46,724 bases of DNA from an uncultured Bacteroidales bacterium (lineage in GTDB: Bacteria > Bacteroidota > Bacteroidia > Bacteroidales > UBA932), in the NCBI GenBank assembly GCA_949297365.1, contig CASFSL010000004.1, positions 1-46,724 of the forward strand, in the 5' to 3' direction. Positions 27,328-46,499 of this stretch are shown here, piece by piece (the first letter of the stretch is position 1; the number at the start of each line of letters is the position of its first letter). A model generated the notes under the pieces. It searched no databases and had not been told where the DNA came from. It was given only the letters and a program-made list of their open reading frames with translations. Position numbers and translations under genes: made by a program.

Positions 27328-27374
27328 ATCAGGATATTTTTTGCGGCACGGGCTTTGCGATAGGACAAAGCGAT

Positions 27375-27382
27375 TATCTTTG
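27375..27382 (+). promoter_or_regulatory. -7 box of the WG/caspase-like gene
   Basis: TATCTTTG at 27375-27382 matches the Bacteroidota -7 box, 22 bp before ATG 27405. Upstream lie a dyad GCTTTG-N8-CAAAGC (27352-27371) and a weaker sigma-54-like arrangement CGGCAC-N5-TTGCG (27344-27359). Confidence 0.5.
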
Positions 27383-27404: not shown

Positions 27405-29366
27405 ATGAGAAAATTCAGATTTGCCGCATATCTGTGCCTGACGGTGTTGATGGCTGCAGCCGGAAGGATGCCGGTGCAGGCACAGGATTTGGAACCTTAC
27501 CGGGACTGGTTCGGAAGCTACGGCTTCACGGACAGTCTCGGTAATATCGTTATAGAATGCAGGTTCGATGATGTCAAGGGCTTTACCGAGGGATACGCTC
27601 CGGTGCTTTCGCGCGGAGGCAACGTCCTGGGTGAGGGCGGAGTCTTCGGGACTCTGTCGCCCACGTTGAAGTGGGGCTATATCGATACCTCGGGCATGAT
27701 AGTGATACCCTGTCAGTTTGACCTTGCGGACCAGTTCTCGGAGGGCTATGCTGCCGTGATGTCAGGTAGCAAATGGGGCTTTATAGACCATGTCGGCGAC
27801 ACTCTGGTCTCGTACAAATACGATGAGGTGCGCAAGTTCGTCAACGGATATGCTGCAGTGCGTCACGGGCAGAAGTGGGGCTATATAGATACGGAGGGCC
27901 AGGAGCTGGTGCCGTGTGTCTACGATGTGGCCGGCAGTTTCGGACAGGACGGTTTTGCGGCTGTGACCAGGGCCGACTCCTCCGGCTTCGTGTTCCGCAA
28001 CGGCAACTGGTACGCCACCAAGGACAGGGCCTTGAACTGGATCCGCGGCATACCTTTCTCTATCTATGCCAAGGACAAGATGATGAACAGCATGAACGAG
28101 TGGCAGCGTCTGGAGCCGGGCGAGTCTGTGCCGGACTGGGAGGCCAGGGTCAATGACGAGACTTTCATGGCCAGGCTTGACGGTCTGGAACTGCGTTTCG
28201 GATCAGGATATCTGACTGCCAACCAGCTGGAGAATCCTGAGTGTCTTCTTGGTGATTATGATTCACTGGCCGGTACGTTTGCGGTGAGTGTGCGTGAGGG
28301 CTCCAGGGAGTACCGTCTGGATCTGCCGGTGCCGGCGGATGATGCGGCCTCAGTGGAGAGCGGATGGAAGAGAGTCAAGTCGCAGTTCAAGTATTTTATC
28401 AACCATGACAGGCCGGCGGTGTCGGAAGCCGTCTTTACTCTTCCGGGCCGGAAAGTTTACGAATGGAAAAATCCGGAGTATGACGCGGCGGGTCATCATC
28501 TGCTGCTGGATTATGATCTGGATGATGTGGATTTTACCCTTCCGGGCAAGATATACCGGGAGACACTCAAGTATGTCCGGGATTCTTCTGTGGCCGATAC
28601 CGACAGCCGTCTGCCAGACGGGTCAGGACGTAATACGGACACCTATGCGATAGTCATAGCCAATGAGCATTACCTTTCCGGAGAGTCCGTTCCTTATGCG
28701 TTGAATGACGGAAAGATATTCTGCGAGTACTGCAGGGCAGGACTGGGAATCCCCGACAACAATATCCGGTTCCTTACGGATGCCAGGGCGGAGGATATCC
28801 GTTCGCTGGAGTCCTGGCTGGACAAGGAGGCCCGGGTGTTCAATGTGGATACCCGCGTCATAGTTTATTATTCGGGCAAATGTGCTGTGGATGACGGTCT
28901 CCGCGAGGTGTTTCTCCTGCCCGTGGACTATGTGACCGGCGGAGTCCAGGGCGGTCTGAGCCTGAATTCCATGTATTCCAGACTTCTCAATACGTCGGCT
29001 GACAACGCCCTCTTTTTAATAGACGCATCCTACGGCAAGATAGACAGGGACGGTATGCGCTCTGACGTGTTCTATACTCCTGCTGTGGATATTCAGACTC
29101 TGCGGCCTGCCGAGAGGATGGTGACATTCTATGCGGCCGGAGCCGACGAGGGGGCCTATCCCTATCCTCAGAAGCGTCACGGACTGTTTACGTATTTTCT
29201 TTTAAAGGCCCTGCAGGACCACCCCGGGATATCCTACGGAGAGCTGTTTGATTATATATCCGCCAATGTAGAGCGCGTATCGGAGGAACTTTACGGCAGG
29301 ACTCAGGAGCCCGAGGTCTACTCGTCCGAATGGGACGGAGAGGCCTGGAGGGACTTTACTCTGTAG
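27405..29366 (+). CDS. WG-repeat protein with catalytically replaced caspase-like (C14) domain
   Basis: A 653-residue exported protein (signal peptide ending near PVQAQ). It has four WG/beta-hairpin repeats in the N-terminal 180 residues (for example WGYIDTSGMIVIPCQFD, WGFIDHVGDTLV and WGYIDTEGQELVPCVYD), a middle region of unknown fold, and a C-terminal caspase-like domain from about 410 (YAIVIANEHYL). In active C14 peptidases the His follows YYSG and the Cys follows LLDA. Here they read YYSGKC (K492) and FLIDASYG (S542), so both dyad residues are replaced while FLLPVDY and the TYFLLKAL helix are kept. A binding or regulatory role is more likely than proteolysis. ATG 27405 is preferred to GTG 27399. 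It overlaps the convergent MATE gene by 11 bp. Confidence 0.8.
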   Translation: MRKFRFAAYLCLTVLMAAAGRMPVQAQDLEPYRDWFGSYGFTDSLGNIVIECRFDDVKGFTEGYAPVLSRGGNVLGEGGVFGTLSPTLKWGYIDTSGMIVIPCQFDLADQFSEGYAAVMSGSKWGFIDHVGDTLVSYKYDEVRKFVNGYAAVRHGQKWGYIDTEGQELVPCVYDVAGSFGQDGFAAVTRADSSGFVFRNGNWYATKDRALNWIRGIPFSIYAKDKMMNSMNEWQRLEPGESVPDWEARVNDETFMARLDGLELRFGSGYLTANQLENPECLLGDYDSLAGTFAVSVREGSREYRLDLPVPADDAASVESGWKRVKSQFKYFINHDRPAVSEAVFTLPGRKVYEWKNPEYDAAGHHLLLDYDLDDVDFTLPGKIYRETLKYVRDSSVADTDSRLPDGSGRNTDTYAIVIANEHYLSGESVPYALNDGKIFCEYCRAGLGIPDNNIRFLTDARAEDIRSLESWLDKEARVFNVDTRVIVYYSGKCAVDDGLREVFLLPVDYVTGGVQGGLSLNSMYSRLLNTSADNALFLIDASYGKIDRDGMRSDVFYTPAVDIQTLRPAERMVTFYAAGADEGAYPYPQKRHGLFTYFLLKALQDHPGISYGELFDYISANVERVSEELYGRTQEPEVYSSEWDGEAWRDFTL

Positions 29367-30702
29367 CGATATATCTTTTGCTGATACGGACGAACCTGGT
29401 GCAGAACATCAGGGCCGCAGCCGCGAGACCGAGCAGCAGCCCGATCCAGACTCCCTCAGGACCCAGACCGAAGGTGAACCCGAGCAGATAGGCGCAGGGC
29501 AGGCAGATCGCGTAATAGGATATGGCCGAGAACACGGTCGGTATGTTGATGTCCTTGAGTCCCAGCAGTGAGGACCGGCTGGCCAGCTGTATGGCATCGA
29601 AGATCTGGTAGAGGGCCAGTATGATGATCAGTTTCCCCGCTATCGGGATTACGGCGGTGTCATCGGTGTACATATACGGTATGAGCCGGTGCAGGGATAT
29701 GAACAGGATGCCGAAAAACACCATTATCGCCATGGCCATGTGGACTGCGGCCACGCCGGCGTGGAACGCGTCCCTGCGGCGTCCGGCCCCGAACTGGTGC
29801 GATACGCGGATGGTGGCCGCCGAGCCGATGCCTGTGGTGATCATGAATGACAGCGAACTGAGGTTCTGCGCAATCTGATGTGCGGCCAGTTCGTATTTCC
29901 CCATCCAGCCCACCATGATGGCCGCGAAACTGAAAGCAGTTACTTCCAGCAGGTTCTGCAGGGATACCGGGATGGACATCTTCAATTGCCGGTATATTTC
30001 GGACAGGTGTATGGGCTTGCGCGGGGTGAGGCGGACGAATTTACGGTATTCCTCCACTCTGAACAGGATGATGAGAAAGGCAATGGCTCCCAGTACTCTG
30101 GAGATGAGTGTGGCCCAGGCCGCGCCGGCCACTCCGAGTCTCGGTGCTCCAAGATTGCCGTAGATAAGTACCCAGTTGAGGAAGATGTTGATCAGATTGG
30201 TGCCTATGGTGATCCACATCTCGTTGCGGGTGTTGCCGATGCCCTCGGAGAAGAAGCGGACGTTGAAGAAGGCGATCATCGGGATGAATCCGGCCACGAT
30301 GATGAAGTAGTAGTCCTTGGCGTGGGCGAGCACCTCCGGGTCCTGGCCCATGCGGTCCATGAAGGCTCCCACTGTCAGCATGATGCCGGTAAGTACGACT
30401 GCCATTACGGTGTTGAGTACGGCGGAATTGCAGAGAGCCGAGGCTACGGCCCGTCCGTCTCCCTTTCCGAAGTGCTGTCCTATCACCGGGGTCACGCCCT
30501 GAGTGAAGCCTATGGCGAAGACCAGTCCGATCATGATGATGGCGTTGGCAAAGGAGACTCCGGCCAGCTCGGCCGCTCCCAGATGCCCCACCATGATGTT
30601 GTCCGCCAGCTGCACCAGCACCTGTCCGGCCTGGGTGATCATCACTGGAAACGCCACTTTCAGATTCCTTTTATAGAAAGGTATATATTCCTGTAGAGTC
30701 AT
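29356..30702 (-). CDS. MATE-family multidrug efflux transporter
   Basis: A 448-residue protein with about 12 membrane segments in two related halves, as in NorM/DinF-type MATE exporters that expel cationic drugs by Na+ or H+ antiport. MITQAGQVLVQLADNIMVGHLGAAELAGVSFA and its half-length echo show the family: here VQLADNIMVGHLGAAELAGV in the first half, and GKYELAAHQIAQNLSSLSFM in the second. GFTQGVTPVIGQHFGKGD is another typical block. It is monocistronic with a minus-strand -7 box (complement of 30731-30738, TACTTTTG), divergent from the TetR-led ABC efflux operon. Confidence 0.93.
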   Translation of the reverse strand: MTLQEYIPFYKRNLKVAFPVMITQAGQVLVQLADNIMVGHLGAAELAGVSFANAIIMIGLVFAIGFTQGVTPVIGQHFGKGDGRAVASALCNSAVLNTVMAVVLTGIMLTVGAFMDRMGQDPEVLAHAKDYYFIIVAGFIPMIAFFNVRFFSEGIGNTRNEMWITIGTNLINIFLNWVLIYGNLGAPRLGVAGAAWATLISRVLGAIAFLIILFRVEEYRKFVRLTPRKPIHLSEIYRQLKMSIPVSLQNLLEVTAFSFAAIMVGWMGKYELAAHQIAQNLSSLSFMITTGIGSAATIRVSHQFGAGRRRDAFHAGVAAVHMAMAIMVFFGILFISLHRLIPYMYTDDTAVIPIAGKLIIILALYQIFDAIQLASRSSLLGLKDINIPTVFSAISYYAICLPCAYLLGFTFGLGPEGVWIGLLLGLAAAALMFCTRFVRISKRYIATE

Positions 30703-30770
30703 ATTGTGTCCTTTTTTGAAAAACGGGCGGCAAAAGTACTAAAAATTCCCTTAGGAAACGGAAATGGTAT

Positions 30771-30810
30771 TATATTTGCATTTAATATGATATTTAACTG
30801 CTTATTAAAT
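30771..30810 (+). promoter_or_regulatory. Promoter and candidate TetR operator of the ABC efflux operon
   Basis: The -7 box TATATTTG (30771-30778) is followed by a perfect dyad ATTTAATA (30780-30787) / TATTAAAT (30803-30810) lying across the transcription start, 5 bp before ATG 30816. The site suits autorepression by the TetR protein encoded next. Confidence 0.55.
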
Positions 30811-30815
30811 ACGCG

Positions 30816-31451
30816 ATGAAAGAAAAGGAAGACAAGGCCGGCGGTGACGGCAGCATGGAGGAGCGGATACTCGCGTGTGCGGAGAGACTGTTTCTCAACA
30901 AGGGGTACAATCTGACCAGCATGACGGAGATTGCCCGTGAGGCCGGCTGCACCCAGGCGCTGGTGCATTATTATTTCAGGACGAAGGAGAACCTCTTCTC
31001 GAAGATCTTCGAGGGCAAGTTCCATCTTTTCATCGACTGCATCGTCCGGAAGGAGGACGAGAATCTTCCGTTCGAAGAGATCGTCGCGGTCAGGACTTCC
31101 AGACTGTTTGACCTGATGGCCGCCAACCGGAGGCTGCCCTTTGTGTTCCTGAGCGAGTTCATCATCAATCCGGATCAGCGGTTCAGCCTCAAGGACAATA
31201 TAGTCAGTCTCTGCGCTGAGGCGACCTCCCGTCTGGAGACGATGATTGCCGCCGAGGTGGAAGGCGGCCGTATCCGCCCTGTCGGGACGATGGACATCAC
31301 CCTGAACATGTTTTCCCTTGTGGTGACATTTTTCATAGTCCTGCCTTTTCTGGAGGAGATGGGCTTTGTCACTGATGCCAACAGGGATGAGTTCATAGAG
31401 CAGCGCAGGCAGGAGATACTTAAAACCCTGATAGGAGGACTGAGACCATGA
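30816..31451 (+). CDS. TetR/AcrR-family repressor (CecR-like position)
   Basis: A 211-residue TetR-family regulator: HTH at about 12-58 (ERILACAERLFLNKGYNLTS, then MTEIAREAGCTQALVHYYFRTKENLF) and a helical ligand domain with a conserved CecR/YbiH-like feel. It leads the operon and its stop overlaps the start of the TolC-family gene (ATGA). It most likely represses its own operon from the dyad at 30780-30810 and is released by an unknown substrate of the pump. Confidence 0.9.
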   Translation: MKEKEDKAGGDGSMEERILACAERLFLNKGYNLTSMTEIAREAGCTQALVHYYFRTKENLFSKIFEGKFHLFIDCIVRKEDENLPFEEIVAVRTSRLFDLMAANRRLPFVFLSEFIINPDQRFSLKDNIVSLCAEATSRLETMIAAEVEGGRIRPVGTMDITLNMFSLVVTFFIVLPFLEEMGFVTDANRDEFIEQRRQEILKTLIGGLRP

Positions 31452-43797: not shown

Positions 43798-45174
43798 TCA
43801 GCGGAAGAAGAGCTCGAAGCGGGTGAGGCCGTCTGGACCGGTGGCGAGACTGAAGCGGATGCCGGAGCGGGTGAGTATCTCGTGGATGACAGTCAGGCCG
43901 ATGCCCTTGCCGTCGGGCTTGGTGGAGAAGAACGGGGTGAAGAGGTTGCGGGCGGCTTCTTCCGGTATGGGCAGGCCGTTGTCGGATATGCACCAGTAGC
44001 CCGGCCTGGAGACAATGGTAATCTGATTCCGGGAAAGGTAGGGTTTGCTGTGGGGTACGGGCTGTACGGATTCTGCTGTGCCTGGGGCGGTGTAGGGAGT
44101 GTCGGGAGGGAAGGCTTCGACGGCGTTCTTGACGATGTTGGTGAGGACCTGTTCCATCAGTACAGGGTCGATGCTGACTTCTCCGGCGTTATCATCCAGG
44201 TCCAGCACTACGGCAATCTGCCGCCGGCCCTTGAGGCTTTCGAGGAAGGGTGCGGTCCTGCGCAGGAAAGAGTTGGCGTCCACGGGCCTGCACACCGGGT
44301 CGGGAATGCGGGCCATCGAGGCGTAGTCGGTGATAAAGCGGCTCATGCGGTCAATGCGCGAGAGCAGTATCGAGAGCATGGAGGCGGTATCCTCATCGCC
44401 CGAGTCCGCGCTGCTCTGCTGCATCGCTCCGAGGGCTGATGTCAGTCCGGCCATGGTGTTGTTGACCTCGTGGGAGATGATGCGGATGACTTTCCGGTAG
44501 CCCCGTTTCTCGGCCTCGTACAGTTCTTCGGTCAGCGGCTCCACCATGTAGAACGTATGCGGAAATCCTCTGTCCATGAAGGACGACTGGGTGCAGCGGT
44601 AGATGTGCAGCGGGTCGGTCTGGAGGATCCTGCCGCTGTCCGGTTCCACGGAGGCCATGAGCCTGAGCAGGGGCAGCCCGCTCTCGTCCAGGGAGAGACC
44701 TTTGTATGTGCCGATGCCGGTCAGGCCGAGGAAGCGGCACATGGCCGGATTGGCCGAGGACAGTTTCCCGTCTATGTCCATGATGAGCACTCCCATCGGG
44801 GATGCGGCGATAAGCAGTTCCAGAAAATGGTTCTGCTCCTGGGCCCGTACCTCATCTTCGTGGAGCTGACGGCTCATCCGGTTGAACAGCTCTATGATGC
44901 GGTCCGCGTCTGTCTGTCCTACGGGACGGAGCCGGGTGGAGAAGTCCTGTTCTTTCAGCAGGTCAATACCTCTCGACAGGGTGTCGATAGGACGGACTGT
45001 TTTCCGGTAGAGTATGGCCAGCAGTATTATGACGGCTACGGTGCAGATCTGGATGACAAGCCAGGTCCATTCCTTCTTCTCAGGTGAGAGCACGAGTACG
45101 AGAACGGCTGTTCCGACTGTCAGTACGAGTATCAAGGCGGCTATGAGCCTGAAATATCCCCGTGCGCTCATCAT
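43798..45174 (-). CDS. Sensor histidine kinase, NtrB/NtrY-like
   Basis: A 458-residue kinase: two N-terminal TMs (about 8-26 and 31-50) with almost no periplasmic loop, HAMP (about 55-105), PAS (about 115-220), the H-box SHEVNNTMAGL with phospho-acceptor H235, and a HATPase domain (NIVKNAVEAF, then WCISDNGLP and GKGIGLTVIHE). The ATGA overlap with the upstream activator gene fixes the start at 45174. A longer in-frame start near 45462 gives a low-complexity stretch that lies inside the activator gene and is rejected. It should phosphorylate the NtrC-type activator; the signal is probably sensed within the membrane or by the PAS domain. Confidence 0.92.
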   Translation of the reverse strand: MMSARGYFRLIAALILVLTVGTAVLVLVLSPEKKEWTWLVIQICTVAVIILLAILYRKTVRPIDTLSRGIDLLKEQDFSTRLRPVGQTDADRIIELFNRMSRQLHEDEVRAQEQNHFLELLIAASPMGVLIMDIDGKLSSANPAMCRFLGLTGIGTYKGLSLDESGLPLLRLMASVEPDSGRILQTDPLHIYRCTQSSFMDRGFPHTFYMVEPLTEELYEAEKRGYRKVIRIISHEVNNTMAGLTSALGAMQQSSADSGDEDTASMLSILLSRIDRMSRFITDYASMARIPDPVCRPVDANSFLRRTAPFLESLKGRRQIAVVLDLDDNAGEVSIDPVLMEQVLTNIVKNAVEAFPPDTPYTAPGTAESVQPVPHSKPYLSRNQITIVSRPGYWCISDNGLPIPEEAARNLFTPFFSTKPDGKGIGLTVIHEILTRSGIRFSLATGPDGLTRFELFFR

Positions 45175-46499
45175 GCTGGAGTTTCTATTTTGTATTTTTC
45201 CAGACGGCGGTATAGAGAGGCCCTGGTGATGCCCAGGGAGGCGGCTGCCCGGGTCATGTTGCCGTTGCAGTCGGACAGTGCCCTGCGGATGCGCTCTTTC
45301 TCCAGCTCTTCCAAAGTGAGGCTGCCGGAGGAGCGTGCGGCTGACGGCTCCGGCGCACCTCCCATGCAGCGGGCGATGTCGTCCTTGCCGATGGTCCCGC
45401 CGGGAGCCATGATGAGGGCCCTTTCCACCACATTCTTCAGTTCCCGGATATTGCCCGGCCACGGCAGACGGCTCAGGTATTCCACCGCCTCGGAGGAGAA
45501 CTCCGCCCGGGACGGCACATCCTTGGCGAAATGCCTCACCAGCAGGGGAATGTCCTCCCTGCGCTCTCTTAGCGGGGGCAGGTGGATGGGAATGAGATTG
45601 AGGCGGTAGTAGAGGTCTTCGCGGAAAAGCCCCTGGCTCACCATGTCAGGCAGGCTGCGGTTGGTGGCCGAGATCACGCGCACGTCGGTCTTGCGGGGCA
45701 GGCTCTCTCCAAGTGGCTCGTAGGTGCGGTCCTGGAGTACCCGCAGCAGCTTGACCTGGCACACCGGCTCCAGTTCCCCGATCTCGTCCAGGAAGATGGT
45801 GCCCTTGTCGGCCAGCTCAAAACGTCCCTTGCGGTCTGTCCAGGCATCGGTGAAAGCCCCCTTCTTGTGCCCGAACATCTCGCTGTCGAAGAGGCTGGAG
45901 CTCAGGCCTCCGAGATTGACCTTGACGAACGGGCCGGATTGCCTGGGAGAGTTGAGGTGGATGGCCTCGGCGATTAGTTCCTTGCCCGTGCCGCTTTCCC
46001 CGGTGATGAGCACGGACGCTCCGGTGGGGGCTACCCTCAGCACTGCGTCCAGCACCTCCCGCATCATGGGGCTGCGGCCGATAATCCGCTCGAATCCCCT
46101 GCCCGTGTCCGGTGTCTGCTCCGCCTGCGCCGAGTTCAGGTGCAGGGCAGTGCCTATGCGTTCCAGCAGAGCCGTATTGTCCCAGGGCTTGGTGATGAAG
46201 TCAAATGCTCCCAGCCTCATGCCTTCCACGGCCAGGGAAATGCTGCCCCAGGCCGTCATGAGTATGACCGGTGTGGACGGGGCGAGGATACGCACTTTCC
46301 GCAGAAGCTCCAGACCCTCCTCGCCGGTGGTGGACAGGGAGTAGTTCATGTCCATCAGGATGAGCTCCGGCTCCTGACGGCGCACGGTCTCTACCGCCTC
46401 TTTCGGGCCCGGTACGGCCTCTGCCGTCAGTCCGGCCCTGCCCAGCAGGAATCTAAGCGATGCCCTTATCGCATCATCATCGTCAACGATCAGTATCAT
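45171..46499 (-). CDS. NtrC-family sigma-54 response regulator
   Basis: A 442-residue activator: receiver (about 1-120, phospho-acceptor D50 in LILMDMN), AAA+ domain (about 138-370) with Walker A GESGTGKEL, the sigma-54 loop GAFTDA at 214-219 (usual GAFTGA, so the fifth residue is Asp), Walker B GTIFLDEIGE, and a C-terminal Fis-type HTH (NMTRAAASLGITRASLYRRL). It remodels RNA polymerase-sigma-54 at -24/-12 promoters. It is co-transcribed with its kinase (4-bp overlap). The one clear sigma-54 promoter in the window, at 12441, is a candidate target. A terminal repeat lies 91 bp upstream of its start. Confidence 0.95.
   Translation of the reverse strand: MILIVDDDDAIRASLRFLLGRAGLTAEAVPGPKEAVETVRRQEPELILMDMNYSLSTTGEEGLELLRKVRILAPSTPVILMTAWGSISLAVEGMRLGAFDFITKPWDNTALLERIGTALHLNSAQAEQTPDTGRGFERIIGRSPMMREVLDAVLRVAPTGASVLITGESGTGKELIAEAIHLNSPRQSGPFVKVNLGGLSSSLFDSEMFGHKKGAFTDAWTDRKGRFELADKGTIFLDEIGELEPVCQVKLLRVLQDRTYEPLGESLPRKTDVRVISATNRSLPDMVSQGLFREDLYYRLNLIPIHLPPLRERREDIPLLVRHFAKDVPSRAEFSSEAVEYLSRLPWPGNIRELKNVVERALIMAPGGTIGKDDIARCMGGAPEPSAARSSGSLTLEELEKERIRRALSDCNGNMTRAAASLGITRASLYRRLEKYKIETPA

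Follow-up and report, generated by a model that had tools for sequence, protein, structure and literature searches.

Bacterial pseudo-orthocaspases, among them SyOC of Synechocystis, have a p20-type domain in which the catalytic His and Cys are replaced and the acidic specificity pocket is kept (PMC6426788; PMC7889975). In TbMC2, Asp95 and Asp211 make up this pocket for basic side chains, and the account of PMC6426788 has both residues kept in the pseudo-orthocaspases too. In the survey reported there (Klemencic et al. 2019), such forms amount to 8.6% of bacterial orthocaspases, 90% of them are alphaproteobacterial or cyanobacterial, and 10 of 1078 sequences are in Bacteroidetes; Ser is given as the commonest replacement for the Cys and Tyr-Ser as the commonest pair. 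An earlier survey had named six bacterial groups in which conservation of the dyad falls short of 90% (PMC3501461). Few roles have been assigned to bacterial caspase relatives; for SyOC, deletion is described as raising tolerance to oxidative stress (PMC7889975).

The stretch of DNA analysed here (the window, 46,724 nucleotides from an uncultured Bacteroidales bacterium) encodes a protein of this already known kind, of which it is a variant: a WG-bearing, sigma-54-linked Bacteroidota form with an invariant Cys. Unlike the published pseudo-orthocaspases, its clade has a WG architecture behind a start that resembles a signal peptide, an invariant Cys that is new, and upstream an element of the sigma-54 type; the residue pairs listed in PMC7889975 do not include those of the clade (Gln, Lys, Arg or Leu at the His position, Ser or Thr at the Cys position). 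In a partial literature search, covering titles and the beginnings of abstracts, we recognised no work on a WG-repeat caspase relative. The features of the locus are as follows.

27345..27358, + strand: sigma-54-type -24/-12 promoter element GGCACGGGCTTTGC, kept in orthologue upstreams
27375..27382, + strand: TATCTTTG, a possible second promoter seen in the upstream alignment and the sequence, which we take to be of the Bacteroidetes -7 type
27405..29366, + strand: pseudo-orthocaspase gene, 653 aa
27405..27485, + strand: likely signal peptide, residues 1 to about 27, read from the sequence by eye
27510..27971, + strand: WG repeat region (Pfam PF14903), about residues 36-189, limits by eye
28008..28583, + strand: middle domain, helices followed by a beta sheet
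28620..29363, + strand: caspase-like domain, residues 406-653
28878..28883, + strand: K492 where the catalytic His would be, followed by C493, a clade-invariant cysteine
29028..29030, + strand: S542 at the place of the catalytic Cys

The initial annotation had described an envelope-exported WG-repeat protein that retains a C14-like fold without its catalytic residues. Its repeats are recovered by WG_beta_rep (PF14903) in four stretches of the window's protein (E 2.3e-43; 146.3 bits against a cut-off of 25.6). Its fold is likewise upheld by the predicted model, in which residues 406-653 adopt the caspase fold of C14 peptidases and orthocaspases and residues 408-653 align with whole caspases. 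By sequence, the window's protein had no match to PF00656 at E up to 1 and none among solved structures at E up to 10; 10 of the 15 genus orthologues, one of these a fragment, pass the PF00656 cut-off. The core of the middle domain is modelled with confidence, and a search of solved structures found none clearly related to it, a result that says nothing on novelty. As to export, the hydrophobic N-terminal start, alike in the 14 orthologues compared, looks by eye like a signal peptide, and on that look the pseudo-orthocaspase is probably an exported protein.

Alignment confirmed that both catalytic residues are lost, with K492 standing for the His and S542 for the Cys. A first alignment had His and Cys in 17 of 17 relatives outside the clade and in none of the 12 full orthologues besides that of the window. 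The survey of homologues for joint loss, proposed along with the original observation, found the dyad missing in all 14 full orthologues, a departure from active C14 peptidases and orthocaspases; L027, a fragment without position 492, is excluded from these dyad counts. Position 492 varies (Gln in eight, Lys in four, Arg and Leu in one each), position 542 is Ser in 13 and Thr in one (L010), and C493, Y543 and G544 are invariant. In 162 intact domains, position 493 is Gly in 157, Ala in three, Ile in two and never Cys; the intact sets used here (147-162 domains) are defined by His at 492 and Cys at 542. By alignment, D435 and D540 are invariant both in the 13 distinct domains of the clade (13 for 14 genomes, as L005 and L014 have an identical caspase-like domain) and in 162/162 intact domains, and D508 is kept in 13/13 and 151/162, respectively. 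Judged by the spacing of the motifs and not by superposition, D435 and D540 correspond to TbMC2 residues Asp95 and Asp211 (PMC6426788). The protein is thus a p20 homologue with a substituted dyad in which, on that mapping, the two specificity-pocket Asp residues are kept, as in other pseudo-orthocaspases. Since about one-third of all columns of the caspase-like domain are invariant within the clade, the kept Asp residues by themselves are weak evidence, and the loops at the active site are among the low-confidence parts of the predicted model. In the 162 intact domains, 29 columns reach at least 90% conservation; the clade keeps 23 of them and has changed six (448, 489, 492, 493, 542 and 543). 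Four of these six fall in the catalytic loops, with limits set by us (Fisher p 0.018); the two dyad columns define the sets and p is 0.14 without them, so the clustering argument was dropped, and our main reading does not depend on it.

The family search gave at least 30 loci. A wider C14 survey of 295 genomes listed 139 matches, spread over 61 of them. Seven short or contig-edge matches of this survey were left out (G239:C27, G244:C66, G221:C121, G345:C254, G345:C248, G325:C182 and G212:C272); 30 were taken in as loci, together with G000:C31, G000:C20 and 100 more that were retrieved. Among the matches listed in the genus, family and order searches, there are 168 distinct domains: 148 carry the intact His-Cys dyad, the clade accounts for 13 plus a fragment, and six others lack one or both dyad residues (H-S twice, Q-S, Q-G, L-P and L-N). 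In a tree of 179 domains, built with columns 492, 493 and 542 excluded and two of 181 rows dropped for having fewer than 150 filled columns, the 13 clade rows form one group with a support of 100 (SH-aLRT, quick method), and the dyad state must have changed four times or more. The wider neighbours of the clade are divergent rows and the rooting is by midpoint, so the tree was not used to name a parent. A second small C14 group with Ser for the catalytic Cys, one member also with Gln for the His, was seen in one family of the same order (L139, L142 and L147, in G413, G217 and G321). Single domains with odd dyads (L-P, L-N, Q-G) are L177 and L188 in G210 and the second frame of L030 in G104; L188 has a very long branch and is perhaps misaligned.

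The element upstream of the gene, GGCACG-N3-TTTGC at 27345, has the -24/-12 spacing of the sigma-54 regulon, and transcription from it would start near 27370. The sigma-54 promoters of PMC3844500 share this layout, most of those given having T where the element has C before the GG. The pattern GGCA(C/T)-N4-TTTGC occurs in 13 of 14 orthologue upstreams, 27-60 nt ahead of the start codon; over 1000 rounds of shuffling that preserved base composition only, not dinucleotides, a mean of 0.006 and a maximum of one orthologue carried it. In an ungapped comparison, the preceding 60 nt equal the window at 12-25 of 60 positions, and against this poor match the element stands out. The exception is L008, an orthologue without the element although its genome (G098) encodes RpoN. 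Such an element is absent from all 49 intact C14 relatives for which 200 nt or more of upstream sequence could be examined; three rows classed in this count as other pseudo forms (L061, L206 and L217) duplicate clade members. For the window taken by itself, a single match at one mismatch or fewer is unremarkable, as 0.79 would be expected by chance. In the window's genome, the strict form of the motif occurs three times (reversed control, 0), and across the 19 genus genomes a narrower form occurs 32 times (reversed control, seven), 13 of the 32 preceding the pseudo-caspase gene. A relaxed form marks seven places in the window's genome (reversed control, 0), and as candidate RpoN targets these have no common theme. 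One of the seven, a sigma-54-like element, lies 50 nt before a frame that by its look resembles an efflux adaptor (L235, G000:C44:120240), and the same pair is seen in L208.

The window's genome encodes RpoN (PF04552, 2.4e-54) and has eight matches to the activator domain PF00158, four of them strong, so that both parts that a sigma-54 regulon calls for are present. One of the strong matches is at 45171-46499 of the window on the minus strand, an NtrC-type response regulator with a GAFTDA motif; beside it, at 43798-45174 on the minus strand, is a sensor kinase that matches PAS and HAMP. It is possible that this pair activates the element at 27345. Across the genus, rpoN is found in 18 of 19 genomes. 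The orthologue is present in 15 of the 19, one copy being a contig-edge fragment, and was not found in G005, G151, G152 or G156; G005, a single case, is without both RpoN and the orthologue, and the other three have RpoN. In Flavobacterium psychrophilum, sigma-54 promoters are reported for protein quality control, envelope stress, gliding and exported proteins without assigned function (PMC9723704), roles that, as far as that account goes, fit a stress-linked export reading. The element ties a caspase fold of a gut bacterium to a testable regulon.

We consider it probable that the gene encodes an RpoN-driven, exported pseudo-orthocaspase that binds basic peptides rather than cutting them. That close relatives keep the protein and its likely stress-type promoter despite the lost dyad suggests binding and not cutting. 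Under some envelope or nutritional stress, RpoN RNA polymerase, once turned on by an enhancer-binding activator, would transcribe the gene, and the product would cross the inner membrane by way of its signal peptide. On the far side, the caspase-like domain, incapable of His-Cys cleavage and keeping an acidic pocket of the metacaspase type, may bind basic peptide segments, or a protein partner, uncut, as a decoy, sensor or scaffold, with the WG repeats as a putative second binding surface. Of the earlier proposal of a pseudo-enzyme that binds a partner or substrate, the inactive caspase fold and the WG repeats hold, and the binding is made plausible by the kept D435, D508 and D540. Most genomes of the genus keep this dead form, and its sigma-54-type promoter has no counterpart in the intact relatives examined, which would make it a clean case for a caspase fold that does not cut. 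The main fact left unexplained is the invariance of C493, for which a simple dead pocket does not account and which counts against this binding role.

That cysteine counts in favour of a rebuilt site, in which C493, or a Ser542-Lys492 pair, would serve as a new nucleophile or redox thiol. We regard this as unlikely, even though C493 sets 14/14 orthologues apart from 0/162 intact enzymes and Y543 and G544, next to S542, are invariant as well. Lys stands at 492 in just 4 of 14 orthologues, so a Ser-Lys dyad was rejected as a mechanism common to all of them, and L010 has Thr at 542. Another His/Cys pair, for example one with C493, had been named in the initial annotation as the case against a dead site. 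C493 is indeed invariant, but the sole invariant His of the domain, H592 (13/13 distinct clade domains), is also present beside the true dyad in 137 of 147 intact enzymes, so the sequence speaks against such a pair. An RpoN-induced, exported relative with its site rebuilt round the shifted C493 beside the old His position, acting as a thiol peptide trap or an envelope stress sensor, seems to us rather unlikely. A different use of the fold is known from animals, which have pseudocaspase partners of the c-FLIP kind. c-FLIP-L has an inactive caspase fold, as the window's protein appears to, and differs from it in having a known intact partner. By analogy, the pseudo-orthocaspase would form a dimer with one of the cell's intact C14 paralogues, switching or blocking it, and we put the chance of this as low as that of a new nucleophile. 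The window's genome does encode three C14 proteins with an intact dyad. One of them, G000:C31, aligns with residues 89 to 650 of the pseudo-orthocaspase at 32% identity; by alignment, it and G000:C20 share with that protein the order of the parts (WG, middle, C14), and, unlike the window's protein, both have an intact dyad and no sigma-54-type element in the loci examined. Such a role requires an intact partner, however, and 2 of the 15 orthologue-bearing genomes, in assemblies that are incomplete (G141, 87% complete; G150, 81%), contain no further match to PF00656 with an E of 0.001 or less. Nor was an intact C14 neighbour noted at the nine named loci, where the search was limited to the window's own neighbours.

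Selection bears on the remaining alternatives. The whole-protein dN/dS has a median of 0.159 over 35 of 91 pairs that were usable, the rest having either a dS of at least 2 or no value at all; by part, the medians are 0.102 for the WG part (28/91 pairs), 0.201 for the middle domain (51/91) and 0.158 for the caspase-like domain (26/91). The WG value, the lowest, would suit a protein whose repeats do the work and whose caspase-like domain is a structural spacer. We find this quite improbable, as the caspase-like domain is similarly constrained and keeps the residues aligned with the S1 pocket. Taken alone, the disappearance of both catalytic residues could mean a decaying pseudogene, a reading that we rejected as scarcely credible: all 14 full copies have intact frames, the median dN/dS is 0.16, and the promoter element is kept amid diverged upstream sequence.

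Among the window's own neighbours, searched at nine named loci, there is no conserved operon partner of the pseudo-orthocaspase gene; the convergent MATE gene is the sole tested neighbour kept beside the orthologue, in 9/9 loci. At 29356-31451, the MATE and TetR genes are almost the same as their L006 counterparts (amino acid identity 99-100%, dS 0.04-0.08), whereas the pseudo-caspase is 75% identical, with dS 1.1. TetR, not MATE, is nearly identical to that of L008 as well. By these sequence comparisons, the efflux segment looks like one that has been exchanged between species.
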